64,000 nt of DNA from a gamma proteobacterium HIMB30 (GTDB taxonomy: Bacteria; Pseudomonadota; Gammaproteobacteria; Pseudomonadales; Litorivicinaceae): contig AGIG01000034.1 in the NCBI GenBank assembly GCA_000227525.2, positions 124,001 through 188,000 on the forward strand, given 5' to 3'. A model generated the notes under the pieces. It saw only the letters and a program-made list of their open reading frames with translations, was not told the origin of the DNA and did no database searches. The position numbers and the translations under genes were made by a program. The first letter of the stretch is position 1; every line of letters starts with the position of its first letter. Positions 32,473 through 49,916 of the stretch are shown in pieces.

Positions 32473-32530
32473 AGTTGTTGTCCTTTAGATACCCTGTGGT
32501 TGGATTGTTACAAAGCAATCGATTGGGTTG

Positions 32531-32548
32531 GTAGTACATCGATACTAC
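32531..32548. promoter_or_regulatory. GTAGTA-N6-TACTAC palindrome upstream of gloA (copy 1)
   Basis: GTAGTA-CATCGA-TACTAC; the inner six bases are themselves nearly symmetric. It lies between the gloA start and the dioxygenase stop and overlaps that stop codon by a few bases. Two further intergenic copies with identical half sites and spacing are at 35617 and 49847. Confidence 0.7.
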
Positions 32549-33309
32549 GACTGGCCCAACTCGACCGGCCCTGACTCATACATTACGTTGACTCGAATCA
32601 CGTACTTAGGCGCCCCATCATGGAGAACATCGCCAGCGTGGAGCACTGATCGATCGTGAATTCCATGTCGGAAAAATAACGCTCTTCCACAACATGGTTT
32701 CACTCGACGAACGACCGTCTGACCGTCCAATAAAAGGGTATCGCCACCCTCAACACCCTCTTGTTCACCATTTAAGTACAACAGCATCGACAACATCGAA
32801 CGACCAGTTTTCCAATACTCGAGACTCTGTGTTTTCTTATTCACAGCAAACCCTGGCCAATCGCCGTCCAGGTGTGGCTTGAATTCTTGGCCGACCGTGT
32901 AGCGATAAGTGTTAAAGCGGTGACTCAATGCACCCATACTTTGCCGACCCTCAATGATCGATGGAATGAAGGCTTCGATGCGGGAAAACAATACCTCAGC
33001 ATCTCGTGGATGAGCCATCCAATGAACAGTTGTGTTCTGGCGCATCCCGGGCGGAGTTTGAATACCAGGTGCCGCTTGCCTAAATCCCAAGGCCTCGGTC
33101 AAGGCAATCAAGCACTCACTTTCTGCTCGCGAGATCACGCCATCCACCTGAAACGCCAACTTGTGATCAAAGCTAAGGTCTAGATAACTATGCGCACCAC
33201 GTATCCCCCGATCTAACACGCTTTGATTGGCACGAAATATCGGTGTGTGTTCTTCAAAACCACCATCAGGCAATGAACCCAGATCTGTGGCAACAACCTC
33301 AACGCTCAT
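32545..33309 (-). CDS. 2-oxoglutarate/Fe(II) oxygenase, prolyl-4-hydroxylase-like
   Basis: 254 residues. The catalytic core has His146-x-Asp148 (FKPHLDGD) and distal His224 (SVLHAGD), with a basic residue near 235-239 (KYVIRVNVMY) for 2-oxoglutarate. The first ~60 residues are extra. The P4H alpha-subunit-like fold hydroxylates protein or peptide side chains, or small molecules. GAGGA precedes the ATG. It lies between the gloA operator and the terminator of the GMC operon, so it is probably transcribed on its own. Substrate unknown. Confidence 0.8.
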   Translation of the reverse strand: MSVEVVATDLGSLPDGGFEEHTPIFRANQSVLDRGIRGAHSYLDLSFDHKLAFQVDGVISRAESECLIALTEALGFRQAAPGIQTPPGMRQNTTVHWMAHPRDAEVLFSRIEAFIPSIIEGRQSMGALSHRFNTYRYTVGQEFKPHLDGDWPGFAVNKKTQSLEYWKTGRSMLSMLLYLNGEQEGVEGGDTLLLDGQTVVRRVKPCCGRALFFRHGIHDRSVLHAGDVLHDGAPKYVIRVNVMYESGPVELGQS

Positions 33310-33321
33310 CTATCAGTCCTC

Positions 33322-33355
33322 ACAAAAAAGCCCAGCGCGCGACGCGCACCGGGCT
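33322..33355 (-). terminator. Rho-independent terminator of the GMC operon
   Basis: In minus-strand orientation AGCCC...GGGCT closes a GC-rich stem (with two mismatches) followed by TTTTTT. It begins about 20 bp after the GMC stop and ends just before the dioxygenase gene. Confidence 0.85.
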
Positions 33356-33374
33356 CTCTGTCAACGAGTCATCC

Positions 33375-34946
33375 TTAGATGGTTCTCGCCGCCATTTCTT
33401 TAGCGATGTAATCAGCTTGTCTAATCGCAAGCGTCACAATTGTGAGCGTTGGATTTTCCGCAGCACCGGTCGTGAACTGAGAGCCATCCGATACAAACAG
33501 GTTCGGAATGTCATGCGTCTGACCCCACTTATTCACAACACCGTCTCGCGCTTTCGCCGACATCCGGTTGGTTCCCAAGTTATGGGTCGACGGATACGGC
33601 GGCGTTGGGAATACTCTTGTCGCCCCAACTGCGTCGTAGAGATCCGAGCCTTGCTTCCATGCATGATTCCGCATCGCGATATCATTTGGGTGATCATCAA
33701 AGTGGACATTCGGTGCAGGCAAACCAAACTGATCTTTAACATCATGATTCAGTGTGATTCGGTTTGTTTCTTGAGGCATATCCTCACCGACAATCCACAT
33801 ACCAGCCATATTTTCATACGAATCTAACGCGGATGTGAACTCACGACCCCATGCACCTGGATTCAAAAATGCCGCCATAAATGGCAACCCTAACGCGAGT
33901 GTTTCGAGCTCGTAGCCACCCACAAAACCTCGCGACGGATCATGTCGAGCCTCGTCGGTGACGATTCCCGCCATTGTTGTCCCGCGCCAAAAACGAACCG
34001 GCTTGTCAAAGGTCGCATACACTGATGCGGTTACATGACGCATATAGTTTCGACCGACCTGACCAGAGCTATTTGCAAGACCGTCGGGGAACATTGACGT
34101 CGCTGAGTTTAGGAGAAGTCGAGGACTCTCGATCGAGTTACCCGCCACGGCAACGACTCGAGCCTTCTGAAGCTGCTGATTGCCATCTTTATCAGCATAA
34201 AGAACACCAGTTACCTTTCCAGATTTATCGTGTTCGATCTTCAACGCTTGAGCGTTCGTCCGCACCTCCAGGTTCCCAGTCGCTTCGCCTTGCGGGATAT
34301 CCGTGTATGCAGCAGACCATTTTGCTCCAAATTTACATCCCTGGAAGCAAAAACCGACCTGTTGACAACTCGTCCGACCATCACGAGGTTCGCTATTAAT
34401 CGCCATCCGACCCGTGTGAACATTTTTATAGCCGAGCTTTTTCGCGCCAGCCTCAAAAACTTTAAAGTTATTATTCCCTGGAAGGCCAGGAATCCCATTG
34501 GTTCTCGTTACACCGAGCTTCTTTTCCGCTTTATCGTAGTATGGCTCGAGCTCTGATAGACCGATTGGCCAATCAAGCAAATTCGCGCCTTGAACGTCAC
34601 CATAAACAGTTTGAGTTTTGAACTCATGCTCCTGAAAACGGAGTGACGCACCTGCCCAATGCACCGTTGATCCGCCAACCGCTTTCACAATCCACGACGG
34701 CAAACCAGAAAAATCCTTTGCTACACGCCAGTCTCCTGATGTCGTCCGGGCATCCAACCAACTAATCTGACCAAAGCTACCCCACTCATCGTTTTGGTAG
34801 TCTTGCGGTAAATGACGGCCGCCAGCCTCCAGACACACCACCTTGACGCCCTTTTGAGCAAGCTCATTAGACAAGACGCCACCACCTGCGCCAGAACCAA
34901 TTACGACAACAACACCATCATTGTTCAAATCAAATTTCGCACTCAT
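33375..34946 (-). CDS. GMC family FAD-dependent oxidoreductase (membrane-type sugar/alcohol dehydrogenase large subunit)
   Basis: 523 residues. FAD motif VVIGSGAGGG (~14-23) and C-terminal HNLGTNRMS with active-site histidine, then a NPTLTIVTLA end typical of gluconate, sorbitol or FAD-glucose dehydrogenase large subunits. TTG 34961 is rejected in favour of ATG 34946, which has GGAG. It has no signal of its own and is probably carried out with its Tat-exported partner encoded 27 bp upstream. It oxidises a sugar, sugar acid or alcohol at the periplasmic face. The usual cytochrome c third subunit is not encoded here. Confidence 0.9.
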   Translation of the reverse strand: MSAKFDLNNDGVVVVIGSGAGGGVLSNELAQKGVKVVCLEAGGRHLPQDYQNDEWGSFGQISWLDARTTSGDWRVAKDFSGLPSWIVKAVGGSTVHWAGASLRFQEHEFKTQTVYGDVQGANLLDWPIGLSELEPYYDKAEKKLGVTRTNGIPGLPGNNNFKVFEAGAKKLGYKNVHTGRMAINSEPRDGRTSCQQVGFCFQGCKFGAKWSAAYTDIPQGEATGNLEVRTNAQALKIEHDKSGKVTGVLYADKDGNQQLQKARVVAVAGNSIESPRLLLNSATSMFPDGLANSSGQVGRNYMRHVTASVYATFDKPVRFWRGTTMAGIVTDEARHDPSRGFVGGYELETLALGLPFMAAFLNPGAWGREFTSALDSYENMAGMWIVGEDMPQETNRITLNHDVKDQFGLPAPNVHFDDHPNDIAMRNHAWKQGSDLYDAVGATRVFPTPPYPSTHNLGTNRMSAKARDGVVNKWGQTHDIPNLFVSDGSQFTTGAAENPTLTIVTLAIRQADYIAKEMAARTI

Positions 34947-34973
34947 TATCTTTTTCTCCAAATCTTCCGATGA

Positions 34974-35498
34974 TTAGATCCACGTGATGTCATCAAAGCC
35001 ACGATTGATGTATCCACCCTTCGTGTAGGATTCACCTTCGTAACCAAACAATGGCCATACGTCTTTGTTGTTATAGAGACCGGTAATGAGGTTCCCCCGC
35101 ATCGTTTGGAAAAATGAGCTTTGCTCCATCGAACGCAGAATTTCAACACGCTCAAGCTCCCAAGGAACCGAGAGATAGTCAGCATATCCTCTGCCTTGTG
35201 CTGCCGCGTCTAAGGCCGATACACCGGCTGCGATCTTGTCTTTAGAATCAGCTGAATCAAATCCTTTGACCGCGGCGGCATAATATTCATCCGCAACATG
35301 ATTGTGTGGGTATATATCCCGAGCCATCTGAATCAGCGTTGCCATTTCTCTTGGCGCGACGTGTTTCGTCTCCATTGCCCAAGCAGCTGTACTGCCAGCA
35401 ACGAAACCAGTACCAACCGCTAGGCCAGCACCGACGACCATGCACCGCTTGAGAAGCTCTCGGCGGCTAATCCCTTTCGATGAAGTGATTGTTTCCAT
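34974..35498 (-). CDS. Gluconate-2-dehydrogenase subunit 3-like small subunit, Tat-exported
   Basis: 174 residues. Twin-arginine signal ISRRELLKR and hydrophobic GAGLAVGTGFVAGS, with a likely cleavage near AWA-ME. The mature part (MATLIQMARDIYPHNHVADEYY) is the subunit-3 or gamma-subunit type that accompanies GMC dehydrogenases and escorts them through the Tat system. It is the first gene of the two-gene operon. Upstream lie two different palindromes (35602 and 35617). Confidence 0.85.
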   Translation of the reverse strand: METITSSKGISRRELLKRCMVVGAGLAVGTGFVAGSTAAWAMETKHVAPREMATLIQMARDIYPHNHVADEYYAAAVKGFDSADSKDKIAAGVSALDAAAQGRGYADYLSVPWELERVEILRSMEQSSFFQTMRGNLITGLYNNKDVWPLFGYEGESYTKGGYINRGFDDITWI

Positions 35499-35601
35499 TA
35501 CTACCTTTCCTCGTTGTTATTGTAGAAATCGCTTCCGCTTTTAGACGACGAACCGATCAAATGCCCGGAACGACGCGATAACTACGAATAATATGTGACA
35601 C

Positions 35602-35613
35602 TTGGGATACCAA
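35602..35613. promoter_or_regulatory. TTGGNATACCAA operator upstream of the GMC operon
   Basis: TTGGGATACCAA, 104 bp upstream of the small-subunit start and three bases from the GTAGTA palindrome. The identical 12-mer recurs at 36135, upstream of the RHH gene. Confidence 0.55.
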
Positions 35614-35616
35614 ATG

Positions 35617-35634
35617 GTAGTAGCGGAGTACTAC
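35617..35634. promoter_or_regulatory. GTAGTA-N6-TACTAC palindrome upstream of the GMC operon (copy 2)
   Basis: GTAGTA-GCGGAG-TACTAC, about 120 bp upstream of the small-subunit start. Same half sites and spacing as the copies at 32531 and 49847. Confidence 0.7.
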
Positions 35635-35749
35635 ATCTGAAAATATTGGATAATAAATTCGTGTGATTTTTTAATATGTTAGTGAAAATTTTGAGATGCT
35701 CGAGAGCTCGTCATCGAGTGATGACGATCAACGATGGCCTACCAAAACG

Positions 35750-36052
35750 TTAACTGGCTTGGCGCTGCCGCAGATCTTCCATTCGCGTTGCGAGCCGATT
35801 ATCCATGTAGATCAAGCATGCCGACCGCAACAACGACGTGAAGTTTTGAGGCGCTCCCTGAAGCTCCATCACTTCTCGATGTAACTTCGAGATAAAACCG
35901 GGTGTGGTAAACCCCTGTGACTCAGCGACCTCATCGAGTATCGACCAATAAAGGCCCTCGAGACGAATGCTTGTTACCTGGCCATCGAGCCGGATACTTC
36001 TCGAAACGTAAGAATAGTTGTCAGGATCTTGCCCAGCAAAAATCTGACACAT
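35750..36052 (-). CDS. Ribbon-helix-helix domain protein (RHH_4 type)
   Basis: 100 residues. The family start MCQIFAGQDPDNYSY is followed by SRSIRLDGQVTSIRLEGLYW, the DNA-binding ribbon and first helix, and by a helical remainder (FISKLHREVMELQG). Such proteins bind DNA as dimers and are often annotated as arylsulfotransferase-like by mistake. The upstream region has a TTGGGATACCAA palindrome identical to the one before the GMC operon. Its targets are unknown; it is a candidate regulator for the neighbouring operons. Confidence 0.85.
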   Translation of the reverse strand: MCQIFAGQDPDNYSYVSRSIRLDGQVTSIRLEGLYWSILDEVAESQGFTTPGFISKLHREVMELQGAPQNFTSLLRSACLIYMDNRLATRMEDLRQRQAS

Positions 36053-36134
36053 AGCAACCCTCCTGGTGCGTGCTTGTTATTTTTATATTGTTCAAGCTTT
36101 GAGAATACACGGTCACCGAAGAATCACAAGTAGT

Positions 36135-36146
36135 TTGGGATACCAA
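36135..36146. promoter_or_regulatory. TTGGNATACCAA operator upstream of the RHH gene
   Basis: TTGGGATACCAA, 83 bp upstream of the RHH start. A degenerate second site (TTGGTATTCCTTGG) lies about 50 bp further upstream. Confidence 0.5.
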
Positions 36147-36221
36147 GATGATAAAAATCACGATTAAGACGAAATTTGGGGCATGTTTGCACCACTTTGG
36201 TATTCCTTGGTGATATTTTGA

Positions 36222-36920
36222 TCACTCGGTTTCGAGCGCAAAATCCACCAGACTTTGCGCATGAAGCGCTGTTGTATCAAGCACAGGTAGTTGCGTATGA
36301 TCTTGGTCAATCAATAATCCGATTTCAGTACACCCAAGAATTACGCCGCTCGCTCCTTGGCGAGATAAGTCTTTGATAACCCTCAGAAACACATCACGTG
36401 AGCTGTCATTGATCTCACCATGACAAAGCTCTTCATAAATGATTCGATGAACCGCCTGCCGTTGCTCCTCATTCGGGATGATCACATCGATTCCGAAGTG
36501 TCTGTGGAGTCGATCGGATAAAAATGATTTTTCCATTGTAAATCGGGTGCCTAACAAACCGAGACACAAGTGATCATTTCGTGAGGCGAATGCGCCAAGC
36601 GCATCACCAATATGTAAGCAAGGGACATTGATCCCGTCACAGACTTGATCGAATACGATATGCATCGTGTTTGTACAAATTGCGATGCAATCAGCTCTTG
36701 CCATGATGAGTTGGTTCGCTGCGTCTCCTAAAATGACGGCGGCGCCATCCCAATTGCCGTCAGACTGGCACTGTTCGATCTCAGCGAAATCCACACTCAC
36801 CATGACGATTTTCGCTGAATGAAAACCGCCCAATTCGCGATTAACCGAACGATTGATTAGCGAATAATAGGTTTGTGTGCTTTCCCAACTCATCCCGCCG
36901 ATGAGGCCGATTGTTTTCAT
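36222..36920 (-). CDS. Aspartate/glutamate racemase family protein
   Basis: 232 residues beginning MKTIGLIGGMSWEST, the usual start of this family. The two catalytic cysteines are Cys82 (ICTNTMH) and Cys197 (LGCTEI). The enzyme inverts the alpha carbon of aspartate, glutamate or a related amino acid without cofactor. ATG 36920 overlaps the stop of the upstream small membrane-protein gene as ATGA, which settles the start. YgeA-type broad-specificity racemases are the closest group. Confidence 0.9.
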   Translation of the reverse strand: MKTIGLIGGMSWESTQTYYSLINRSVNRELGGFHSAKIVMVSVDFAEIEQCQSDGNWDGAAVILGDAANQLIMARADCIAICTNTMHIVFDQVCDGINVPCLHIGDALGAFASRNDHLCLGLLGTRFTMEKSFLSDRLHRHFGIDVIIPNEEQRQAVHRIIYEELCHGEINDSSRDVFLRVIKDLSRQGASGVILGCTEIGLLIDQDHTQLPVLDTTALHAQSLVDFALETE

Positions 36921-37063
36921 AAACCGAACCAACCGCCTAATTCACCAAGATAGAGAACCAGGAGTACGAAAGAGATTCCTTTCCAAACCCACAAATTCTG
37001 ACGAAGCTCTTCTGCTTCTTTTTCAAGCACAACTAGATCAGTATCGTCTTGCTCTTGCTTCAT
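36917..37063 (-). CDS. Small single-span membrane protein (48 aa), coupled to racemase
   Basis: Reads MKQEQDDTDLVVLEKEAEEL, then a charged amphipathic helix, then one hydrophobic segment (WKGISFVLLVLYLGELGGW), ending FGL. A strong AAGGAAA ribosome site lies upstream, and its TGA overlaps the racemase ATG, so translation of the two is coupled. The acidic, probably coiled-coil N-terminus would lie in the cytoplasm. No family recognised. Confidence 0.7.
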   Translation of the reverse strand: MKQEQDDTDLVVLEKEAEELRQNLWVWKGISFVLLVLYLGELGGWFGL

Positions 37064-37192
37064 ATTTGCTTTCCTTCCGCAATATCATGGCTGAGATGGT
37101 GCCAGATTTGTCGAACAAACACCCGATCTTGAATTCTAACCCGTGATGGTTTCATACTTCTTACCGTGTTTTGGATCATCTGAGTGAGTGAC

Positions 37193-37543
37193 ATGGGCAA
37201 ACTCAAACAATTCATCTTAACCGTTGTGTACACAGTAATTTGCGGTTCAGTATCGAGCGCTCTGGCTCAACCGCCTTTTACGTTCAAATGCTTTGAAGCC
37301 GGATCGGGTCGCGATTTTCGATTTGAAGTACCCGCTAGTGGAAAAGGTGAGCTCGTCCTTTTACCTGGATTCCCCGTCAAATCCAGAGATCGTCTTCCTG
37401 TTAATGGATTTGCATCGAAAAACTCGTTCCGTTTCGGAAACGAGATCGAGGGTGGGCTGTTTCGAAACGGCGTATTCTATTATCACAAACACAATAGTTC
37501 GACTGGCACCAAGATCGTCAATGGCGCCTGTAAATTGATTTAA
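37193..37543 (+). CDS. Small secreted protein of unknown function
   Basis: 116 residues. A signal peptide (FILTVVYTVICGSVSSALAQ) is followed by a ~90-residue beta-rich mature region with two cysteines (CFEAG near the start, GACKLI at the end), placed to form one disulfide. The ATG at 37193 lacks a strong ribosome site; GTG 37184 is in frame. It converges on the small gene at 37549. Confidence 0.6.
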   Translation: MGKLKQFILTVVYTVICGSVSSALAQPPFTFKCFEAGSGRDFRFEVPASGKGELVLLPGFPVKSRDRLPVNGFASKNSFRFGNEIEGGLFRNGVFYYHKHNSSTGTKIVNGACKLI

Positions 37544-37548
37544 TCGTG

Positions 37549-37722
37549 CTAAAGAATACGGCACCAACCTTTTTGGCCGAGCAATTGATCGAATCCTCTC
37601 AGCTCGCGGTAGTGGCACTGAGCGGCTTCATAGTCGAGGATGGCATAACCACAAAAAGTTAACACTGCGGCGATACAGAACATCGTAATGACTGTTTGCT
37701 TATGATATCGAATCCAACTCAT
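37549..37722 (-). CDS. Small membrane-anchored protein (57 aa)
   Basis: Reads MSWIRYHKQTVITMFCIAAV, a basic start plus one hydrophobic segment (an uncleaved anchor or signal), then a polar part with three cysteines (QCHYRELRGFDQLLGQ, KGWCRIL). Codon use is unremarkable and a weak GAG-type ribosome site precedes the ATG. It converges on the secreted-protein gene with 5 bp between the stops. No family recognised. Confidence 0.5.
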   Translation of the reverse strand: MSWIRYHKQTVITMFCIAAVLTFCGYAILDYEAAQCHYRELRGFDQLLGQKGWCRIL

Positions 37723-37934
37723 CAAATGATCTCGTCAACGGTCTTTTGTTTATCGACGATTGATGGGAAAACTATAGTGAATGAGGCATTTATTGCTAAT
37801 CGCATTTCAGAATCACCATCCAGTTGATCCGACAACGGCAGTGAATCAGTGAAACATCTGTGACAAAAATCTTTAGCCGCTCGTGGTCTGGAATCTCGCA
37901 GGGAGACCGCTTCCCGAACTCACGGTCGTCGACG

Positions 37935-38882
37935 TTAAGGGATTCCCAGTCGACAGCGCAAATCGTCTGACATCGGATGCGTCGTCAATTTCGTCCCTGC
38001 TTGGCGCACCAAGCCGGGCAACCGATCAGAAAGTATTTCCTCTAACTGACGCGCAATCTCAAACAAAGCATCCAGGTCGACATCGCACCGATATCCATCG
38101 AAAATCAACGCATGGACCAAGTCCTCAGTACAGACATTACCGGTCGCTCCAGGAGCATAGGGACAACCCCCAATACCACCGATCGACGCATCCAAATGAC
38201 GGATACCTGCATCGATTCCAGCCAACGCGTTTGCGATGCCCAACCCCCGTGTGTTGTGAAGATGCAAGGTAACTTCAATCTCAGGAAATTCATCAATGAT
38301 CGCCTGACACAGGCCAAAGATCTGATGAGGGGTCGCTGTGCCCACAGTATCTGCAAGAGTTAGTGAGTCGATGCCAACATCCAGATAACGTTTCGCCCAT
38401 TCCAGCACCATCGATGGATCAACCGAGCCAACAAAAGGACATCCGAAAGCCGTGGCCAGAGTCCCGTTAACCTTCAATGATCCTCGGTTTGCACAAATCT
38501 CCCGAAACTGATTCAACGAATCATCACAAGTCATTCGAAGATTCGCCATGTTGTGTGCATTACTGACCGACATCACAATGTTTACTTCATCGAGATCGAC
38601 AGCGAGAGCTCGCTCGAGACCTCGGATGTTTGGAATTAGTGCGCTGTAGACCACACCTGGAACACGCTCTATTGCATCCAGAACGGCCTCAGCATCAGCT
38701 AACAAGGGGACAGCTTTCGGTGACACAAACGAAGTGACTTCGATTTTCGACAAGCCAGTTTTTGATAACTGATTCAGCAAACGGATTTTATCGGCAGTCT
38801 CCACAAACTGACCCGCGCTCTGAAGACCATCACGCATGCCAACTTCTTGAATACGGATCACATCACTTGGCACATCACGCAT
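37935..38882 (-). CDS. HMG-CoA lyase family enzyme (3-hydroxy-3-methylglutaryl-CoA or citramalyl-CoA lyase)
   Basis: 315 residues. Signature VGMRDGLQ (Arg17, Asp18), LHLHN with metal-binding histidines 207 and 209, and GGCPYAPGATGN with catalytic Cys240. The ATG at 38882 shares a base with the TGA of the CoA-transferase gene, so the two are coupled. In HMG-CoA lyase this cuts HMG-CoA to acetyl-CoA and acetoacetate; a close relative in Chloroflexus cuts (R)-citramalyl-CoA to pyruvate and acetyl-CoA. The adjacent CoA-transferase suggests that the lyase's CoA substrate is made in this operon. Confidence 0.9.
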   Translation of the reverse strand: MRDVPSDVIRIQEVGMRDGLQSAGQFVETADKIRLLNQLSKTGLSKIEVTSFVSPKAVPLLADAEAVLDAIERVPGVVYSALIPNIRGLERALAVDLDEVNIVMSVSNAHNMANLRMTCDDSLNQFREICANRGSLKVNGTLATAFGCPFVGSVDPSMVLEWAKRYLDVGIDSLTLADTVGTATPHQIFGLCQAIIDEFPEIEVTLHLHNTRGLGIANALAGIDAGIRHLDASIGGIGGCPYAPGATGNVCTEDLVHALIFDGYRCDVDLDALFEIARQLEEILSDRLPGLVRQAGTKLTTHPMSDDLRCRLGIP

Positions 38883-40075: not shown

Positions 40076-40086
40076 ACCCAACCTCT

Positions 40087-40971: not shown

Positions 40972-40975
40972 CTTG

Positions 40976-42250: not shown

Positions 42251-42756
42251 TCGTGACTACCTCCAAGACTCACGATGTCATTCCCCCACAACGCTTTCAA
42301 TTCGCAAGCGGCTTGGGCAAATAACAATAAAAATCCTAGTGGAACTGGGAGTTCTGCAACCCAGGTCGGCAGGTTGAGAAGAGAGCCGGTGGTTCTTCCC
42401 CGAACCCAACTCTCATAAAAAATATCCCAACCCCAAAAAACGATCACAATCGAGAAAACCAGAATAGCCATCAGTGACAATGCCACACAGACTTTTTGTG
42501 CGCTTCGCGGCAATAAGCTGGTTAACGCATTCACAGTGATGTGTTGCCGAAGCGTCAGAACCCAGGCCATTGCAAGCAAACATCCCCAGATCAGACACAA
42601 CTGGCTGACCTCAGCGGCCCAAGTTGTTGGTTTGATGAAGAAATATCGAGCGACGACCTCGTAAGTTAGAAATAGACCTGTCACGGCCAAAAGTGTCGCT
42701 CCAAACAATCCTGCCCAAACAGATAGTTGGTTAATCAATCGCATGATCACGTTCAC
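42247..42756 (-). CDS. dctQ: TRAP transporter small permease subunit DctQ
   Basis: 169 residues (GTG 42756), or 165 from ATG 42744. Four hydrophobic segments in the usual DctQ arrangement, with EVVARYFFIKPTTWAAEVSQL after the first helix. It supports DctM in the membrane. The gap to the DctP gene holds a stem-loop. Confidence 0.9.
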   Translation of the reverse strand: MNVIMRLINQLSVWAGLFGATLLAVTGLFLTYEVVARYFFIKPTTWAAEVSQLCLIWGCLLAMAWVLTLRQHITVNALTSLLPRSAQKVCVALSLMAILVFSIVIVFWGWDIFYESWVRGRTTGSLLNLPTWVAELPVPLGFLLLFAQAACELKALWGNDIVSLGGSHE

Positions 42757-42766
42757 CGAATGTAAC

Positions 42767-42788
42767 GCGACCCTCGTAAGAGGGCCGC
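42767..42788 (-). promoter_or_regulatory. Stem-loop between dctP and dctQ
   Basis: In minus-strand RNA GCGGCCCUC-UUAC-GAGGGUCGC forms a 9-bp stem with one G-U pair and a four-base loop. The pair is G-U only on the transcribed strand. No U-tract follows, so stabilisation or attenuation is likelier than full termination. Confidence 0.6.
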
Positions 42789-42802
42789 CCTTTGGGACGA
42801 AA

Positions 42803-43783
42803 TTATTGGCTCGCCGCGTCTAAAATCGTTTTACCCAAATCACCAGTCGCTTGGAGATACGAATCGTAAACAGGCTGAGACACCGCCTTCCACGCTTCAA
42901 GTTCTTGATCTGTCAGCTCGACAACGGTCATTCCATTGGCCTTTGCTGCTGCGTAGGCGTCAGCCTCGATCTGAGTCATCGCGTCGCGAACACTTTCCTG
43001 CGCGACGTTGGCTGCTGCTCGGATATGCCCTTGAATCTCCGATGACAAACCGTTCCACCAATCGGTGTTAACGACCACAACAAATTCAATGTCCGCATGG
43101 TTGGTCACAGTAATTGTATCCATCACTTCCCAAAGCTTCCGTGACTTCACACCGGAGACACCCGTCATACCGATATCGACCGTACCGCGTTGATAGGCCA
43201 GATACTGCTCTGATCCAGAAATCAGGGTCGGTGCTCCGCCTGCTGCTGTTACGAAATCACCGAGCGTTTTCCCGAAAACACGCGCCTTCTTTCCTTTCAT
43301 GTCCGCAGGCGTTCGTATTGGCCCACCCTTCGATAAAAGGACTGCTCCACCATATGCCTGCCAGTAAAGTATCTGCCCACCGGTCTTTGCAACTTCCTTT
43401 TCAATGGTCGTTCTCACAACGCTACCTTCGGCAACTGCAGCTCGCACTTTCGCTTCTGAGTTCAACAAAAACGGCATGTAAAAGACATCAACCACCGGTG
43501 CATCACCAACGTATCGAGTCAAGGATGCAACACCCGCCTCAATTGCCCCAGAACCGACTGCCGCCGGAACCTCTTTATCCTTATAAAGCTGCGCGCTGTC
43601 ATAGATCTCGACATCGATAGCGCCATTAGTTCGAGTTTCGACCTCTTTCTCGAAGACGAGTAAATTTTGTCCAAGATGGCTTTTGAGTGGTAATTGAAGA
43701 GATATCCTCATCTTGTCTGCGGCTTGAGCTGTTCCAGCGACTAGTGTCAAACCGAGTGCTGCCACGGCTATTTTTTTCAACAT
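42803..43783 (-). CDS. dctP: TRAP transporter periplasmic solute-binding protein DctP
   Basis: 326 residues. Signal peptide (IAVAALGLTLVAGTAQA) followed by a DctP-type mature protein with KARVFGKTLGDFVTAAGG near the conserved arginine that pairs with the ligand carboxylate. GAGGA lies before the ATG. First gene of an operon with dctQM, an ICL/PEP-mutase enzyme, CoA-transferase and lyase. The ligand is thus probably a mono- or dicarboxylate, perhaps C5-branched. Confidence 0.93.
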   Translation of the reverse strand: MLKKIAVAALGLTLVAGTAQAADKMRISLQLPLKSHLGQNLLVFEKEVETRTNGAIDVEIYDSAQLYKDKEVPAAVGSGAIEAGVASLTRYVGDAPVVDVFYMPFLLNSEAKVRAAVAEGSVVRTTIEKEVAKTGGQILYWQAYGGAVLLSKGGPIRTPADMKGKKARVFGKTLGDFVTAAGGAPTLISGSEQYLAYQRGTVDIGMTGVSGVKSRKLWEVMDTITVTNHADIEFVVVVNTDWWNGLSSEIQGHIRAAANVAQESVRDAMTQIEADAYAAAKANGMTVVELTDQELEAWKAVSQPVYDSYLQATGDLGKTILDAASQ

Positions 43784-43945
43784 GATTTAATCCTCATTAT
43801 TGTTATCGATTGTGTTTGGTTGCCCTGCAGGACGAAATTTCGCCATACGAGTCCCAGTGGTTATACCTGTCTACCGAAGAGATTTGCAATACCAAAATCC
43901 TACTTTTAGAAAATTTATTTGATTTACTTTGGAAAAAGTCGATAT

Positions 43946-43957
43946 AAGGTATACCAA
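43946..43957. promoter_or_regulatory. GntR/FCD-type operator in the TRAP/GntR divergon
   Basis: AAGGTATACCAA; its inner GGTATACC is a perfect palindrome and a near match to the TTGGTATACCAA class. It lies 17 bp before the GntR start and about 160 bp upstream of dctP, suiting control of both. Confidence 0.55.
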
Positions 43958-43973
43958 ATAACAACTATCACGG

Positions 43974-44609
43974 ATGGGTATGACAGATTCGCTCAGCCTC
44001 AAGGCAAGGAAAAAAACTGAAGAATTCATCTTGCAGGGCATTTTGAAAGCCGGCGATAAGATCACAGAACGCGATCTAGCCGAGCGGCTTAGCATGTCCA
44101 GGGCGCCTGTTCGCGAAGCGATTCGGGAGCTTATCGGGGTTGGGCTTCTAGAACAAATCAGCGCCAGACAAATTATTGTCCGTCAATTACTGTTGTCCGA
44201 GGTGAAAGAAATCTTCTCAATCCGAGCGATGCTGGAAGGCAAAGCTGCAGCCTCAGCCGCTGAACGATTTCAGACGGTAGATCTCATTAAGCTTGAAACA
44301 CTTCATGAAGACATGAAGCGAGTTGCAGGTAGCGACGACCTTTCAGATTACTTTGATCTGAATATTCAGTTCCATAAGGTCATTCACACAGTCGCAGAAT
44401 CCCCTCGCCTGATGAACTTAATCGATCAAGTGATGCGCGAATCACTGGTATTCAGAAGTCGAAGCCTGGCTGATTACGAGAATATTCAGAAATCAATCGA
44501 AGAGCATGAACAGCTGGTCAAGGCATTCAAGGCACATGACGATGAATTGGCTTCAATCTTAATGGCCCGTCACATCGAGGGCGGATTTAACCGACTCGAA
44601 CTCTTGTAG
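43974..44609 (+). CDS. GntR family transcriptional regulator (FCD subfamily)
   Basis: 211 residues. Winged helix around ITERDLAERLSMSRAPVREAIRELIGVGLLEQ, then an FCD domain with FDLNIQFHKVIHTVAESPRL and EEHEQLVKAFKAHD, which supply metal and ligand-binding residues. Divergent from the TRAP/CoA-transferase operon, so it probably senses the imported acid or its product. ATG 43974 and ATG 43980 are both possible; neither has a strong ribosome site. Confidence 0.9.
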   Translation: MGMTDSLSLKARKKTEEFILQGILKAGDKITERDLAERLSMSRAPVREAIRELIGVGLLEQISARQIIVRQLLLSEVKEIFSIRAMLEGKAAASAAERFQTVDLIKLETLHEDMKRVAGSDDLSDYFDLNIQFHKVIHTVAESPRLMNLIDQVMRESLVFRSRSLADYENIQKSIEEHEQLVKAFKAHDDELASILMARHIEGGFNRLELL

Positions 44610-44610
44610 C

Positions 44611-45282
44611 TCAATCCAACGTTATTCCGACGATTTCGTTATGGAAATCAACTTCAATCAATGATTGTTGGAAAAACGTTGTGCCGAGAATGGCATCGAT
44701 ATTTGCGGTGTCCATTAACTGACGGAGTGCACCGGTCGCGATACCAAATGTTTCAGTTAATGACTGATCTCCCACAAGGAGCGAGCAGGCAACTGTCTCG
44801 ACTTCAAACGCTCCGAGCATCGGATGGAAATCATGCTGTTTTCCCAGTGCCTGTCCGAACACAGCCGTGTCATCACTCCTGAGGTAAGACAACCCAGCAC
44901 CAGTGTCCAGAATACAGCTCAACCGTTCCTCGCCAATCTGGCAATGAACCGTGGGTGAGCCCATGACAAATGCAGTCTCATCACCGTCAATTGATACGTC
45001 GAGCCGAGCGAGCGTATTATTTGCGACGTCAAAGCCCAACACAGCGTCGGAAAACGCATCAACGCCAACCAATCCAACAGCAGCAAATGGAAGACTTTCC
45101 TGTATCTCAGTCCAGGTATAACTACCAAACCTCGAATTTAACTGCACCACTGAGCCCAGCACGCGCACCGGAATATCTGGCCCTAACGATACCGGAGACC
45201 CCGTATCAATGATAAGGCACCCCTCGTTGAAATCAGCGCAAAGAATGCCTCCACGCACAACGACTTCGATTGACTCTGGCAC
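44611..45282 (-). CDS. Single-chain double retropepsin-like aspartic protease
   Basis: 223 residues from GTG 45282 (AGGGGG upstream). Two DTG triads, Asp26-Thr-Gly (LIIDTGSPVSLG) and Asp126-Thr-Gly (CILDTGAGLSYL), lie exactly 100 residues apart. Each is followed at equal distance by a hydrophobic-hydrophobic-Gly segment (around Gly73 and Gly200), the second element of the retropepsin active site. The protein is therefore an internal duplication that could form a pepsin-like active site in one chain. No signal peptide, so it is probably cytoplasmic. It lies 49 bp behind a secreted Ser-rich protein gene. Proteolytic activity is inferred. Confidence 0.72.
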   Translation of the reverse strand: MPESIEVVVRGGILCADFNEGCLIIDTGSPVSLGPDIPVRVLGSVVQLNSRFGSYTWTEIQESLPFAAVGLVGVDAFSDAVLGFDVANNTLARLDVSIDGDETAFVMGSPTVHCQIGEERLSCILDTGAGLSYLRSDDTAVFGQALGKQHDFHPMLGAFEVETVACSLLVGDQSLTETFGIATGALRQLMDTANIDAILGTTFFQQSLIEVDFHNEIVGITLD

Positions 45283-45331
45283 AAATCATCCCCCTTGCGT
45301 TTGAGGCCTCAGTGTACTGCGATTTGATCAA

Positions 45332-46129
45332 TTAATAATAGCTTCGGCGGTCTGCAGAAATACTGGAGGATGATTCACTTTCGGCAGCCTCAGAAACAGC
45401 CTCTTCACCAGATTCTGTAGACGGCACCGAGGTGTCAACTGATTCTGAACCGCCTATGCTCACCATCGTTGAATCACTGCTGGCAGCCTCGGAAAAACTT
45501 TCACCTGATGACACGCTACCTGAATCAGATCCAGTATCCGAGCTGTCAATCGCAGGCCCACCACTTCTCCAATTCACACGATCGATTTTCTTGGGAACCA
45601 TTTCTTTACCGCGAGCACGGATCAGAGCCAAAACCCGCCTCATACCACCATGATGACTGCGCTTGAGCGCGTCTTCGATTAACTGAACTTCGGCACTGGA
45701 AAGTGTTAATGCTTGAATCCAGCTGAACTTACGCGACGTCTGTATCTCAATAACAGCGGTGGAAACACCCGCTGATCGCATCGCAGGAAATGTCACTTCA
45801 GTCGATTGGCTTTTGTCGAACGCATTCGTCAGTTTGAGCCTGTTCAAACCAAGCCGAGGCCTGACTTGAATAACCGTATTCCGTCGAATCGGCCCCAAAT
45901 CAGTCCCGTTGAGCTCCACCAAATAAGTGCTCAGTAAGCCTTGGAGATTCCTGACAGTACTGGATTGATCTGCCGAACTATCAATAAACGCCAAGACGGC
46001 GTCGCCTTGGCTTTGAGACAACGCGTCGAGGACTGACGCTTGTGAGTCGAGTCTCTGCGCACTATCAGCGTTTAATCCGGTCGACAGGATGATAGAAACA
46101 ATTACTAATCCAACCTTTATTTTCAGCAC
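45332..46129 (-). CDS. Secreted protein with Ser-rich acidic C-terminus, unknown function
   Basis: 265 residues from GTG 46129. A signal peptide (VGLVIVSIILSTGLNA) leads a ~170-residue region of unknown fold. The last ~70 residues are almost all Ser, Asp, Glu, Gly and Ala (SDTGSDSGSVSSGESFS and similar), a likely disordered tail, ending in RRSYY. Same strand as the double-retropepsin gene, 49 bp upstream of it. Family not recognised. Confidence 0.65.
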   Translation of the reverse strand: MLKIKVGLVIVSIILSTGLNADSAQRLDSQASVLDALSQSQGDAVLAFIDSSADQSSTVRNLQGLLSTYLVELNGTDLGPIRRNTVIQVRPRLGLNRLKLTNAFDKSQSTEVTFPAMRSAGVSTAVIEIQTSRKFSWIQALTLSSAEVQLIEDALKRSHHGGMRRVLALIRARGKEMVPKKIDRVNWRSGGPAIDSSDTGSDSGSVSSGESFSEAASSDSTMVSIGGSESVDTSVPSTESGEEAVSEAAESESSSSISADRRSYY

Positions 46130-46326
46130 GGCCTAATGCTCTCTCACTCGAACACAGTTTCTATCGGCTAAAAACGCTCGCCCTATAGGACGTCGTGACC
46201 TTTTAACAGCGATTGGCCGGAGCATCCTTGGATCATTAATCGAGTAAGCGCGCCCCTCGGCTCGCACGAATCATCAAGGTTGACAAGGATTCACTCGATC
46301 ATTACCCGGCGAATTTATCAGAAAAA

Positions 46327-46539
46327 TCAGTTTATCAGCGCTGCCGAACCGGTAGCGAGATCCCTAATCAATCGTATTCTATCGATTTCATCTTGTGATT
46401 CAGAACCTACGCGACTTTCGATCAGTTGATCAACTTCCGTAGCCATCCCTTCGCTGATCAGCGCCCGGCACTGTGCAAAAAGACTAATATCCAGACAATT
46501 CAGATCACGCTCAAATTCAAGCTTTGTTAATACTGACAT
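46327..46539 (-). CDS. Small hypothetical helical protein (70 aa)
   Basis: Starts MSVLTKLEFERDLNCLDISL and is mainly alpha-helical and charged (IESRVGSESQDEIDRIRLIRDL). GGAG lies eight bases upstream of the ATG. No domain recognised. It stands about 200 bp upstream of the Ser-rich protein gene on the same strand. Confidence 0.55.
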   Translation of the reverse strand: MSVLTKLEFERDLNCLDISLFAQCRALISEGMATEVDQLIESRVGSESQDEIDRIRLIRDLATGSAALIN

Positions 46540-46710
46540 TTTTATTCTCCGTCAAAAAAACAGCACTAATAGTCAATGCAAGAAAAATGCCAATAATTTT
46601 GAGAGGCAGGTATAACCCAACCACAACTGGCAGGAGCGATAATCCAGTATTACTCTAGGCACACGTTTCTAGGCCCACGTTCTGATTTCGAGATTTCTAA
46701 AGGTATTCAA

Positions 46711-47106
46711 TTGACGCACGCCACCATTTATCACAACCCCAACTGCAGTAAATCAAGAGATGCGCTGCGCTTTTTGCAAGATTCAGGCATCAATCCAAAA
46801 ATCATTTTGTACTTAAAAAATGGATGGACCGCTCAGACTTTGCAAGCATTAAAGGCATCTTCGGGCCTCGACTGGCGACAAATGCTAAGGCCAGACGCTC
46901 AATCTGAACTGCACAACGCATTGATCAACAATGACTTCGAAACAATTGTTCAACATATCATCGAGCGACCAGCCGCTGTTGAAAGACCTTTCGTTGTGAC
47001 GAACAAGGGGACCCGATTATGCCGGCCGATCAATACAATCTTGGAGATCATCGATTGGCGTCCCAAAACACCATGGCTGACTGAAAAAGGAGTTCAGGTA
47101 ATTTAA
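46711..47106 (+). CDS. ArsC/Spx family arsenate-reductase-like protein (YfgD type)
   Basis: 131 residues from TTG 46711, with AAAGG upstream. The thioredoxin-like fold opens with IYHNPNCSKSRDALRF and catalytic Cys12, followed by a conserved RP-containing segment (IIERPAAVERPFVV) for oxyanion binding. Glutaredoxin-coupled arsenate reductases share this layout, but with no ars genes here the YfgD-like subgroup of uncertain role is more likely. Confidence 0.85.
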   Translation: MTHATIYHNPNCSKSRDALRFLQDSGINPKIILYLKNGWTAQTLQALKASSGLDWRQMLRPDAQSELHNALINNDFETIVQHIIERPAAVERPFVVTNKGTRLCRPINTILEIIDWRPKTPWLTEKGVQVI

Positions 47107-47108
47107 TC

Positions 47109-47201
47109 TCACGACAAAACCATGATCACGATGACCGTGCCTGCAATGATCAGCCAATTCACCCACCAAGCTTTCGTTGGTTTGTTATCGTTACCCTGCA
47201 T
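47109..47201 (-). CDS. Small single-span membrane protein (30 aa)
   Basis: Reads MQGNDNKPTKAWWVNW, then one hydrophobic helix ending in VIMVLS. GAGGG lies upstream of the ATG. It converges on the ArsC-like gene. The polar N-terminus, Trp belt and helix are those of a genuine mini membrane protein, but length alone makes the call uncertain. Confidence 0.4.
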   Translation of the reverse strand: MQGNDNKPTKAWWVNWLIIAGTVIVIMVLS

Positions 47202-47284
47202 GGATCACACCCTCTACTGCCTCAGAACACGGTAAACCCTTTGCGGGATTGGGTCCAATAGCGGGAAAACCAAAATCCAATAAA

Positions 47285-47310
47285 AAAGGCTGAGTGGTGA
47301 CTCAGCCTTT
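47285..47310. terminator. Bidirectional Rho-independent terminator
   Basis: AAAGGCTGAGT-GGTG-ACTCAGCCTTT, a perfect 11-bp stem with a GNRA-like loop. Six A on the left give a U6 tail for minus-strand transcripts (from the operon starting at 49687); three T serve the plus strand. Confidence 0.8.
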
Positions 47311-47625
47311 CCTGGTTTCGACTCGCCCATTTCAAGGATACGCTCAATTGCAAGCGGTCAATCGGCCTCTGTTATCCGTTTGCCTGTCAAAACAGACGCC
47401 CTCAGCGGGACTCTTACGGATCGCCCAGAATTCGCTTGCCGGTTTCTCATGATGAGAAACATTTACGAAACTAGTGTTTACTATCGCAGATTTCTCTACG
47501 CATTCAACAATTCAATGGTCGAGCCCCGGTGTTGCATCTGCGTAAAAACCAGCGAGGTGAACGAGACAACAACGGTTCGAATCACCACTCACGAGACCTA
47601 GGCAAATGCCAAGAGCTGTCTCTCT
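47311..47625. other. Intergenic region without convincing genes
   Basis: Around 315 bp between the terminator and the coiled-coil gene. A 73-codon plus-strand frame (47380-47601) has no ribosome site or recognisable content. Nothing else visible. Confidence 0.4.
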
Positions 47626-48303
47626 TCAGGAATATTCAGAAACTTCGAGTACCATGTCGATTAGCTGATGGATTCGTTTATTATTCCCGGCAATCGCCAC
47701 TCTATTTTGATCCGATTCTGCGTTCAGCTTTTCAATGTGGGCTGTATTTTCGGCGACGGTTTCAACCAAACCGTCACAAATCTCATTTAACTCATCGATC
47801 ATTTCATTCGATACCGAATATTCTTCATCGAGTACTTCCTGCATCACACGATCATGATGAAGGTCTGTTGATGCGGCAGCTAATACAATCTCATCGGTAA
47901 AACCAGCAGAGCTACTATTCACAGCGATCATTTGTTTATTAATCTCGACAAGGGATTGATTAATTCGGATAAGACCACGGTTGATTTCTATCCTCGCTTT
48001 CAGATGCTCAATGAGTAGTTTGAGGGTCGCGAATTTTGCATGAATTTTCTTTTCCTCTTCTTCGGTCTCGATATGATTGAGCTCGTGCAAACAAATGGCC
48101 AGATGTGACTCCAGTCCTTTGGTTGCAAGATCACGGAGCGCGACACCATTAGCCGTGGTATTGGCCAGAATATGAAAATGATTTTCTTCAACTTTTGAGC
48201 GATGTAGTCCTGCCTTCGCCGTGTTTTCGCTCACTCTAGCGGATAGCTCATAAATGAGATTCTGGATCCTTTTTAACTTTTCAATTTTGACCTCGGTACC
48301 CAT
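47626..48303 (-). CDS. Hypothetical coiled-coil protein (225 aa), third gene of uncharacterised operon
   Basis: Almost entirely helical with heptad-like spacing and recurrent ENTAHIEKLNAESDQN and INRGLIRINQSLVEINKQM type segments, which suggests long coiled coils. The pattern of Ile-Asn-x-x-Leu repeats recalls tail-fibre or toxic-anion-resistance (TelA-like) helices, without a secure match. AGGAG precedes the ATG. No membrane segment or signal peptide. Forty bases behind the second gene of the operon. Function unknown. Confidence 0.65.
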   Translation of the reverse strand: MGTEVKIEKLKRIQNLIYELSARVSENTAKAGLHRSKVEENHFHILANTTANGVALRDLATKGLESHLAICLHELNHIETEEEEKKIHAKFATLKLLIEHLKARIEINRGLIRINQSLVEINKQMIAVNSSSAGFTDEIVLAAASTDLHHDRVMQEVLDEEYSVSNEMIDELNEICDGLVETVAENTAHIEKLNAESDQNRVAIAGNNKRIHQLIDMVLEVSEYS

Positions 48304-48342
48304 AAATTCTCCTGTGTCTTAATCTCTGACTTAAAAACTCAG

Positions 48343-48858
48343 CTAATCGACATTTGATCCCACAATATTTCCAGCCAATAAAAATTCTAGTGGTGTGATG
48401 GGTTGCACCATGTACTGATCGAGATTCAACAGTGTTCCTAACTCGTTTGCGATCTCCTGGCCTTCGGAAAGTGCGGTATGGGTATCAACTTCCTTTTGCT
48501 GATATCGAATACCCAGCTCGAAAAATCGGGAGGCAAACTCAAGGGGAATATAGATTGTCACAGGACCGTTTACCGTCGCCATTGTCTGAAAGCAAGTCTC
48601 GTTGTCAGCCGTTGGCATGGGGGGTGGAGCTTCTCCTCCAGCGGTTGCGATCATTACCTCTTCTTCATGGCTGGCGATCGCCTTCATCGCCGCCCGAAAG
48701 ATAATATCAAGCCCTGTTTTAGACCGGAGCGCGATACGAATTCGGAGCGCTCTAAGCTCTCTCGAGTCTCCCGACGACGATACCGCTTTCTCGAAACCAT
48801 TCTTTGCGGTGTCTCGCTCTTTTGCTTTCCCACCACCAAGCCAGTTCAACAGACCCAT
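48343..48858 (-). CDS. Hypothetical protein (171 aa), second gene of uncharacterised operon
   Basis: A basic glycine-rich start (MGLLNWLGGGKAKERDTAKN), an alpha/beta body with ETCFQTMATVNGPVTIYIPLEFASRFFELGIRY, and a helical end. Soluble, no signal. It lies 14 bp behind the first gene and 40 bp before the coiled-coil gene. No family recognised. Confidence 0.65.
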   Translation of the reverse strand: MGLLNWLGGGKAKERDTAKNGFEKAVSSSGDSRELRALRIRIALRSKTGLDIIFRAAMKAIASHEEEVMIATAGGEAPPPMPTADNETCFQTMATVNGPVTIYIPLEFASRFFELGIRYQQKEVDTHTALSEGQEIANELGTLLNLDQYMVQPITPLEFLLAGNIVGSNVD

Positions 48859-48871
48859 CGTTTGACCCCAG

Positions 48872-49687
48872 TTAATACTTTGAAACTTTTTCTAAGATCA
48901 CATCGTGTCTAAGATCGGGGACATCGAGCCACGTCGATCCCGGAGAATCTCGCTTAACCATCGCCTGCAACAGCGCACTCGTTCCCACCCAAACAATCTC
49001 GCTTAAATCAGCAGCCTGTCTTTTCAGTCCTTGAACGGCCACTGTTAACGCATACGGATCATTGACCAAAATAAAGTTAGGCGCATCACTGAGCTTCAAA
49101 ACATCAGGGTTATTTTTCGTTCGGCTAAAGATTGGCATCCGGATCACCCGCTGACTTGCAGCGATGAGACGTTTCGCAACACCACCTGCCTCTTCAATTT
49201 CCTCGAGCACGATACAGAGCTCGTTATCCTCGGCATCCTCTGTGATCAATTTCGATAGCTCGACAGAGCTCCCTGGAGCAGTTGGCGTCAAAATTTCTCG
49301 TGGACTGACTTGATCAATGCCAACAAATCTGATGATCTCAGAAAAAGCAAGCGCTGTGTCGTCATCGAGCGCCGCATACTTCAGTCGATTCTTCCTTAAC
49401 TTCAATGCATTAATCAGTGATTCAAATTGCTCTAGCGCTTCAGGCGCGTAGGGATTAGCGGCAACTACCCGCAATGGACGACTGTCCTTCACATCGTCCC
49501 AATCTGCGAATTCTCTCAAGACAGCACGTTGCCGAGCATCATTCGTTAGCTCAAGCGTACTCAGCGGACATACATCAACTTCGACCCAATATCGCTTACC
49601 ATCCTTGCTCAAGGCGTCAGCCAATGGATTAGCCGTATCGCCCCATGTTGCGTTGGTCACAATCAGATTAGCGTTACTGATTCCCAT
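48872..49687 (-). CDS. Hypothetical protein, possible uroporphyrinogen-III-synthase-like fold; first gene of uncharacterised operon
   Basis: 271 residues in two alternating alpha/beta halves. The first opens with LIVTNATWGDTANPLADALS and holds VVAANPYAPEALEQF; the second has NFILVNDPYALTVAVQGL and IVWVGTSALLQAMV. The layout (a strand-turn-helix opening, then NDPYAL and a VG-T-AL segment) resembles the HemD fold, but the known substrate-binding residues cannot be confirmed and hem genes are absent. A haem role is not claimed. Soluble. Confidence 0.6.
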   Translation of the reverse strand: MGISNANLIVTNATWGDTANPLADALSKDGKRYWVEVDVCPLSTLELTNDARQRAVLREFADWDDVKDSRPLRVVAANPYAPEALEQFESLINALKLRKNRLKYAALDDDTALAFSEIIRFVGIDQVSPREILTPTAPGSSVELSKLITEDAEDNELCIVLEEIEEAGGVAKRLIAASQRVIRMPIFSRTKNNPDVLKLSDAPNFILVNDPYALTVAVQGLKRQAADLSEIVWVGTSALLQAMVKRDSPGSTWLDVPDLRHDVILEKVSKY

Positions 49688-49846
49688 ACTTTAATCCTGT
49701 ATCTAACCATTCAGACACTACACTGATCGATTATTAAAAGCACCTACAAACCTTGGAGCGATCAATCGAGACACGCTGAGAAAACCGGACTGAGAACGAC
49801 TGAACACCCCTCACGACACTGCCAAAAACACTGCAGATACCGCTTG

Positions 49847-49864
49847 GTAGTAGTGCAATACTAC
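49847..49864. promoter_or_regulatory. GTAGTA-N6-TACTAC palindrome upstream of the enolase-superfamily gene (copy 3)
   Basis: GTAGTA-GTGCAA-TACTAC, 53 bp upstream of the start codon. Flanked by CTTG on the left and by CCAAG on the right, so the symmetry extends further than in copies 1 and 2. Confidence 0.72.
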
Positions 49865-49916
49865 CCCAAGGTCATAATTGTTGGGCAGAGTGAGAGACTG
49901 ACCAGGCGAGGTTTTC

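Follow-up and report, generated by a model that had tools for sequence, protein, structure and literature searches.

A palindrome upstream of glyoxalase, GMC oxidoreductase and sugar-acid dehydratase genes in gammaproteobacterium HIMB30, probably a site of the RHH_4 family of ribbon-helix-helix proteins

The window analyzed here is a stretch of 64,000 nucleotides from the genome of the gammaproteobacterium HIMB30, and our subject is a palindrome, GTAGTA-N6-TACTAC (class A below), three copies of which lie before gloA, an operon encoding a GMC oxidoreductase, and an enolase-superfamily gene. A first-pass annotation had read these copies as the sites of a dimeric repressor or activator, all in intergenic DNA. 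All three are present at the positions it gave with 0 mismatches, and the copies at 35617-35634 and 49847-49864 are intergenic as claimed. The copy at 32531-32548 is not, since it shares 4 bases, including the stop codon, with the end of the oxygenase open reading frame (ORF) at 32545-33309 on the minus strand; despite this overlap it is still in the region upstream of gloA. The principal features are given below, with genes called by our own ORF script, which misses some.

31969-32472, minus strand: gloA, lactoylglutathione lyase (NCBIfam TIGR00068, 185 bits against a cut-off of 120; Pfam Glyoxalase)
32504-32509, minus strand: -10-like hexamer AACAAT of a putative promoter, 22-27 bases past the gloA-side palindrome
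32531-32548, minus strand: class A palindrome GTAGTA-N6-TACTAC(C), exact match, reading toward gloA
32545-33309, minus strand: 2-oxoglutarate-Fe(II) oxygenase superfamily protein (Pfam PF13640), third gene of the GMC cluster
33375-34961, minus strand: GMC oxidoreductase (Pfam GMC_oxred_N and GMC_oxred_C)
34974-35498, minus strand: 174-amino-acid protein with a twin-arginine-like N-terminus, a GMC partner conserved in relatives
35590-35595, minus strand: putative -10-like hexamer CATATT, 22-27 bases past the GMC palindrome
35617-35634, minus strand: class A palindrome, exact match, reading toward the GMC operon
35750-36052, minus strand: RHH_4 protein (Pfam PF13467, E 2e-21), proposed as the activator on the basis of its co-inheritance with the palindrome
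49847-49864, plus strand: class A palindrome, exact match, reading toward the enolase-superfamily gene
49886-49891, plus strand: putative -10-like hexamer CAGAGT, a weak consensus match, 22-27 bases past the palindrome
49917-51008, plus strand: enolase-superfamily (MR_MLE) gene, sugar-acid dehydratase-like (Pfam MR_MLE_N and MR_MLE_C)

The 174-amino-acid protein has no match in Pfam or NCBIfam and is presumably gluconate-2-dehydrogenase-subunit-3-like. For the enolase-superfamily gene, the top NCBIfam model is talarate/galactarate dehydratase, at 178 bits, below the cut-off of 500. When the window was shuffled 100 times and searched at up to 2 mismatches, the mean number of matches was 0.37, and three were reached in 1 shuffle of the 100.

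Across the source genome (2,168,870 bases, 36 contigs), there are four exact copies of the motif versus one of a reversed control. Three are those of the window, which lies on contig C3, and the fourth, at C9:200903, is also intergenic, with pqqB on one side and a gene for an ABC substrate-binding protein associated with pyrroloquinoline quinone (PQQ) on the other (NCBIfam TIGR03863, match below cut-off); it is thus upstream of the pqq genes, directly after the ABC gene. The four copies have the inner bases CATCGA, GCGGAG, GTGCAA and AATATC. Two near matches were also found. One (C9:198616) separates two divergent genes, for a PQQ-type sugar dehydrogenase (Pfam GSDH) and for a PQQ-associated beta-propeller protein (TIGR03866, match below cut-off), and the other (C32:1189) lies 68 bp ahead of a class II aldolase/adducin gene. 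On one strand, the reversed control is commoner than the motif once up to 2 mismatches are allowed (146 matches versus 22), and we therefore give weight only to exact and near-exact copies. Among 276 genomes sampled from the class, 15 contain any exact copy and the source genome alone has more than one. A random distribution, inside genes as well as between them, would have spoken against the first-pass annotation; instead, all four exact copies are intergenic, save that one of them reaches the end of an ORF. The functional theme it had proposed, oxidation of a sugar or alcohol, dehydration of the resulting acid, and glyoxalase activity, holds, and in this genome it also takes in the synthesis of PQQ and a sugar dehydrogenase of the PQQ type. 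At C9:198616 (L016 15617-15645), we also observed a third half site 11 bp on, giving GTAGTA-N6-TAATAC-N5-TACCAC, a pattern as for cooperative ribbon-helix-helix (RHH) binding that is not found in three orthologous rows.

The palindrome recurs before the same genes in relatives. In a sample of 22 genomes of the genus (Litoricola/Litorivicinus kin, source included), 14 carry exact copies, and the recurring sites lie before the 174-amino-acid protein and GMC operon, gloA, pqqAB, the sugar dehydrogenase gene and the enolase-superfamily gene. Further rows added orthologous palindromes at gloA (7), the GMC operon (7) and the enolase-superfamily gene (3), so that the comparison with orthologous upstream regions proposed for the GMC and enolase genes returned the same palindrome before the same genes. 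The half sites of these orthologous sites are constant, while the six inner bases and the flanks mostly vary, as expected for a protein-binding site under selection. The RHH_4 gene adjoins the GMC operon, or is one gene apart from it (G014), in the genus genomes that were read. It was found in 8 of the 22 genomes, and each of these 8 carries one or more exact copies of the motif; loss of the motif in close relatives, which would have spoken against the first-pass annotation, was thus not seen in them. Of the 14 genomes in which RHH_4 was not found, 8 lack an exact motif; among the 6 that have one or more, four (G012, G018, G019 and G021) are 61-91% complete. One genome (G011) has a GMC gene 61% identical to that of the window, with similar partner genes and gloA, and neither RHH_4 nor sites at these genes were found; an orphan palindrome (L235:4447) lies where relatives carry the dehydratase gene (loci L234 and L235). 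In two genomes (G016 and G017) decayed remnants of the site remain at the dehydrogenase.

The sites share a fixed relation to a putative promoter. Among 29 genus sites oriented toward their genes, representing six promoter types, a C directly follows the second half site in all 29, and an nAnnnT hexamer lies exactly 22 bases after the site in 24, compared with a mean of 2.7 for all offsets from 1 to 37, of which the second best reaches 7. Many of these rows come from sister species and hence are non-independent, and the strand of the four dehydrogenase sites and the aldolase site was picked after inspection of the sequence; leaving out the four dehydrogenase rows gives 20 of 25 for the -10. 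The same architecture is seen in 48 non-redundant sites from distant genomes (68 before near-duplicate removal), each taken as the best GTAGTA-N6-TACTAC match within 1200 bp upstream. Half-site conservation in this set is partly by choice, since the sites were picked as the best motif match, and the following C and the -10 are independent of that choice. The C follows in 48/48, the second base of the hexamer is A in 45/48 and the last is T in 40/48, a G lies two bases ahead of the hexamer in 33/48, and the best hexamer is at +22 in 20 sites and at +21 in 5. If transcription starts at the usual 7 bases past the -10, the palindrome is centered at about -42.5 and its end occupies the -35 region, where there is no -35 consensus. 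Class II activator sites are centered near -41.5, keep a constant spacing from the -10 and go with a poor -35, and the sites here agree with all three, their center being a predicted one. The position, the kept -10 and the poor -35 thus give the picture of a class II activator promoter, and the palindrome is, judged from sequence, probably a class II activator site.

Beyond the genus, the site travels with RHH_4. When named genomes were scanned for the RHH_4 profile, 431 pattern-matched stretches were obtained, 421 of which encode relatives; the best 80 of the 421 were kept, and removal of the nine closest left 71 distant loci. Within 1.2 kb upstream, the site is present at up to 2 mismatches in 68 of the 71, compared with a mean of 3.1 and a next best of 12 for half-site permutations. 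At up to 1 mismatch there are 51 motif matches, versus a mean of 1.7 over 90 permutations (the motif itself included) and a next best of 8. The site usually lies 65-110 bp ahead of a DJ-1/PfpI gene that is followed by RHH_4, a layout found in Vibrio, Shewanella, Aliagarivorans, Thalassolituus, Rhizobium and others, with Pfam DJ-1_PfpI confirmed for one. DJ-1 was recognized through a sequence pattern at 65 of these loci (L088, L095, L110, L121, L146 and L149 were left out), and the site precedes all 65 RHH_4-linked DJ-1 genes, 46 with 0 and 19 with 1 mismatch of 12. In contrast, none of 18 close DJ-1 orthologs (57-66% identity) from genomes in which RHH_4 was not found has a site at up to 1 mismatch; the best palindrome has 2 mismatches in one gene and at least 3 in the other 17. 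The one sampled genome that carries RHH_4 beside such a DJ-1 gene (G253) has the site with 1 mismatch.

The site also stays with RHH_4 while the neighboring gene varies between DJ-1, a glyoxalase-like (VOC) gene and GMC. In one genome (G290) RHH_4 and a glyoxalase-like gene are divergent and have an exact site between them, with TATACT at the expected place, and the glyoxalase-like gene is followed by one for a twin-arginine-type protein like the 174-amino-acid protein of the window; at L146 the site precedes a glyoxalase-like gene upstream of RHH_4. Apart from DJ-1, RHH_4 and an ORF antisense to these, no neighbor family was seen, by eye, in more than 15 of the 71 loci. Finally, in 28 whole genomes, a subset of the 71 hand-picked for spread, the strict form GTAGTA-N6-TANTACC has 31 matches in 23 genomes; the own site of the remaining five deviates from the strict form. 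Of the 30 matches that were examined, 23 are at the RHH_4 operon, 6 are inside ORFs, and one, in Oceanospirillum beijerinckii, lies before a glyoxalase-family gene with TATAAT at +22.

The RHH_4 protein of the window has 100 residues, of which 16-82 match PF13467 (76.3 bits, cut-off 25). The predicted model (predicted local distance difference test 91.5) has strands at 15-22 and 25-32 and helices at 33-45, 50-65 and 71-99, and so displays the strand followed by two helices of the RHH fold. A match to permuted single-chain Arc was returned with a probability of 0.94 and an E value of only 0.16, ranked after three ZapA chains. The one solved relative is 3kk4, Bordetella BP1543, annotated only as uncharacterized (E 5.8e-36 with the family profile); its sequence and the predicted fold match those of our protein, with a template modeling score of 0.83 for the fold, and the two share Met-Cys in the alignment. 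Cys2, R21, G24, V26-T27-S28, R30, E32, W36, E60, N70, F71, S73, L75 and R76 are invariant in 80 close members, and Cys79 is present in 79. Cys2 directly follows the inferred start codon in 80/80, where the Met-Cys start is set by alignment to the query and several ORFs open further upstream. A tblastn search of the protein against phages gave no match.

We propose, with a probability of about 0.78, that the RHH_4 protein is the binder of GTAGTA-N6-TANTACC, an autoregulating class II activator that would serve carbonyl detoxification and whose regulon would be enlarged in the genus. The site, its conservation, the promoter geometry and the co-inheritance are as observed above; from them we infer direct binding, activation and a carbonyl signal. 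Conservation at orthologous promoters, the fixed -10 distance and co-inheritance with one transcription factor family all favor the view that the palindrome is the dimeric regulator site of a regulon, and the data point to the local RHH protein that the first-pass annotation had named as one candidate. Autoregulation is suggested by the occurrence of about one site per genome, before the operon of a DNA-binding protein, and the choice of RHH_4 over another factor by the DJ-1 control and the strict-match control in the 28 genomes. By analogy with known RHH complexes, two RHH dimers would probably sit on the half sites with centers 12 bp apart. Placed just upstream of, and partly replacing, the -35, RHH_4 could activate promoters that have a -10 but a poor -35. 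In many bacteria with a close relative, it would activate its own operon with a DJ-1/PfpI or glyoxalase-like gene; in the Litorivicinus relatives the regulon may also include the GMC operon, gloA and the sugar-acid dehydratase gene, and in some species pqqAB, the PQQ-type sugar dehydrogenase and aldolase genes as well. DJ-1 proteins act as deglycases or glyoxalases. Reactive carbonyls would be the likeliest signal, because DJ-1/PfpI and glyoxalase genes are the common targets.

A number of observations weigh against this proposal. Within the genus, one genome (G015, 95% complete in 410 contigs) has sites at pqqAB and the dehydrogenase, and neither RHH_4 nor GMC was found in it; a search at up to 2 mismatches found no site at pqqB of four others (G014, G016, G017 and G020); and all four pqqAB sites and the aldolase site do not have the strict -10. 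On these genomes, the PQQ link is patchy and not the core of the predicted regulon. Among the distant loci, three of the 71 (L095, L110 and L121) lack an upstream site, and one DJ-1 gene without RHH_4 (L254, G297) has GTAGCA-N6-TGCTACC 40 bp upstream, at 2 mismatches, which may be a variant site of another regulator. In the class sample, RHH_4 is strongly matched in eight genomes, and only four of them have a site within 1.5 kb of it: the source and G290 with exact copies, G253 with 1 and G232 with 2 mismatches of the strict 12. The other four (G147, G103, G225 and G314, the last three of one genus) have no site near RHH_4, and the distant members of G103, G225 and G314 do not have the Met-Cys start. 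In relatives from the order, the site near RHH_4 has 0 (G042), 1 (G025) or 2 (G030) mismatches, and none is found in G036. Exact copies away from the gene also occur, one without promoter geometry in G232, and five in G036, two of which have the geometry. The link thus thins beyond the best 80, and the site therefore belongs to an RHH_4 subfamily rather than to the whole family.

The first-pass annotation had left open whether the regulator represses or activates, and the promoter sequences point to activation. That RHH_4 instead binds as a repressor released by a signal is unlikely, yet the strongest of the alternatives. Autorepressors are common among RHH proteins. RelB is a reported example (PMC2812701). 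The palindrome also extends to the -35 region, and polymerase could be blocked by a protein bound there. However, the -35 region is the palindrome itself, without a -35 consensus, and the -10 is held at one exact distance, often with the upstream G, a fixed spacing that a repressor does not need. Less probable still is that another regulator, such as a LuxR/NarL-type response regulator, binds the palindrome and that RHH_4 is merely one of its targets. In Pseudomonas, acetate genes and those of PQQ-dependent alcohol oxidation are reported to be activated by regulators of the LuxR type (PMC12997753, PMC5715377), and the CrbR site, at -52 to -36, has about the same promoter position (PMC5715377). 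The source genome encodes three GerE-domain proteins, and the pqq sites kept in G015 fit this alternative as well. The CrbR ACTU sites, however, as described in the part of PMC5715377 available, have a GAC-N4-GTC-like core unlike the palindrome here. The near-confinement of the strict motif to the RHH_4 operon in the 28 genomes is the pattern of a local autoregulator, the close DJ-1 orthologs without RHH_4 are without the site, and no other neighbor family, by eye, exceeds 15 of the 71 loci. A CrbR/ErdR regulon as such was tried and ruled out, given that GTAGTA-N6-TANTACC differs from the ACTU sites in the published text available to us.

The two remaining explanations were rejected. One is that the binder is the LacI-family protein at 51099-52106, a sugar-type regulator within the window and beside the 49847 site. 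Operators of LacI proteins typically carry a central CG and lack a variable 6-bp gap. Neither the central CG nor a conserved lacI neighbor is found: in L038, L040 and L053 there is no LacI within two genes to either side of the orthologous sites, and far genomes keep the palindrome with RHH_4, all of which makes this protein a very improbable candidate. There is even less reason to invoke chance recurrence or a mobile repeat. The motif is short, and single exact copies occur in 13 genomes in which RHH_4 was not found (12 of the class sample and one of the genus sample), but 11 of these 13 are inside ORFs and only one has the promoter geometry. The copies of the window and source genome, in contrast, are intergenic, conserved in position among orthologs and phased to the -10, and they are not one repeat because their inner bases and flanks differ.

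Among known regulators of comparable genes, NemR and FrmR resemble RHH_4 in being cysteine-containing and in controlling glyoxalase or aldehyde-detoxifying genes. Both are repressors, however, and their folds, of the TetR family for NemR and the CsoR/RcnR family for FrmR, are unlike that of RHH_4. AmrZ, an RHH protein, differs in belonging to another subfamily and reportedly has a site unrelated to the palindrome here, which occupies a single exact promoter position across two bacterial classes. Its likeness lies in the RHH fold, and it is reported to be both activator and repressor (PMC3325190). CrbR/ErdR and AgmR/ErbR, as far as the accessible portions of their sources go, are alike in having an inverted repeat just upstream of the promoter, in activation and in an overlap with PQQ metabolism, but are LuxR-type proteins of another family, with the different core of CrbR noted above (PMC5715377, PMC12997753).

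The first-pass annotation had called the regulon undescribed, and literature searches, with subscription journals mostly outside their reach, returned no earlier description of it, of the motif or of an RHH_4 function. Nor did they return a paper combining the half-site letters with a regulon or activator, or a binding site, target or role for the PF13467 family. In the part available of PMC3999925, 3KK4 is used only as a modeling template, and a paper that prints COG4321 beside iorA gives no function in the part available. Our data would provide a likely DNA site, a promoter architecture and a set of targets for a widespread transcription factor family that has a crystal structure. They predict class II activation by a ribbon-helix-helix protein, which they tie to DJ-1/PfpI and glyoxalase genes, and they predict which oxidative sugar genes are co-expressed in this marine genus; they also make the physiological signal of the RHH_4 family directly testable.

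How such a signal might be perceived can be stated only tentatively. It is conceivable, although improbable, that RHH_4 senses reactive carbonyls directly through Cys2. Loss of the initiator Met would leave a cysteine at the N-terminus. This 1,2-aminothiol would condense with aldehydes, for example methylglyoxal or formaldehyde, to a thiazolidine and so turn RHH_4 into an activator. RHH_4 switched in this way would activate glyoxalase, DJ-1 and, in the genus, aldehyde-making dehydrogenases. If true, thiazolidine sensing by Cys2 would be a new chemistry of transcriptional sensing.

The window has a second palindrome, TTGGNATACCAA, in four copies at 18112, 35602, 36135 and 52241. Two of these lie beside the RHH_4 and GMC genes, and one more gene stands next to the dehydratase gene:

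35602-35613, no strand assigned: class B palindrome TTGGGATACCAA, at the GMC promoter between the class A palindrome and the -10
36135-36146, no strand assigned: class B palindrome TTGGGATACCAA, upstream of the RHH_4 gene
51099-52106: LacI-family protein, beside the dehydratase gene

The class B palindrome, which we take to look like a GntR/FCD-type operator, is likely the site of a second regulator at the GMC promoter, and its position there, between the class A palindrome and the -10, would be as for a repressor site. By eye, similar elements are present at the GMC promoter in L039, L040, L049 and L054, and not in L043, L050 and L051.

Two further observations concern other sites and neighborhoods. 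G036 belongs to another family and has a genome of 2.5 Mb and a distant RHH_4; its five exact copies (L044-L048) lie, by eye, before integrase-like and PEP-CTERM-like genes, among others. In the source genome, an ORF reading places proteorhodopsin-like and carotenoid-like genes (L016 277-4506) on the same contig as the PQQ cluster, about 10 kb from it.

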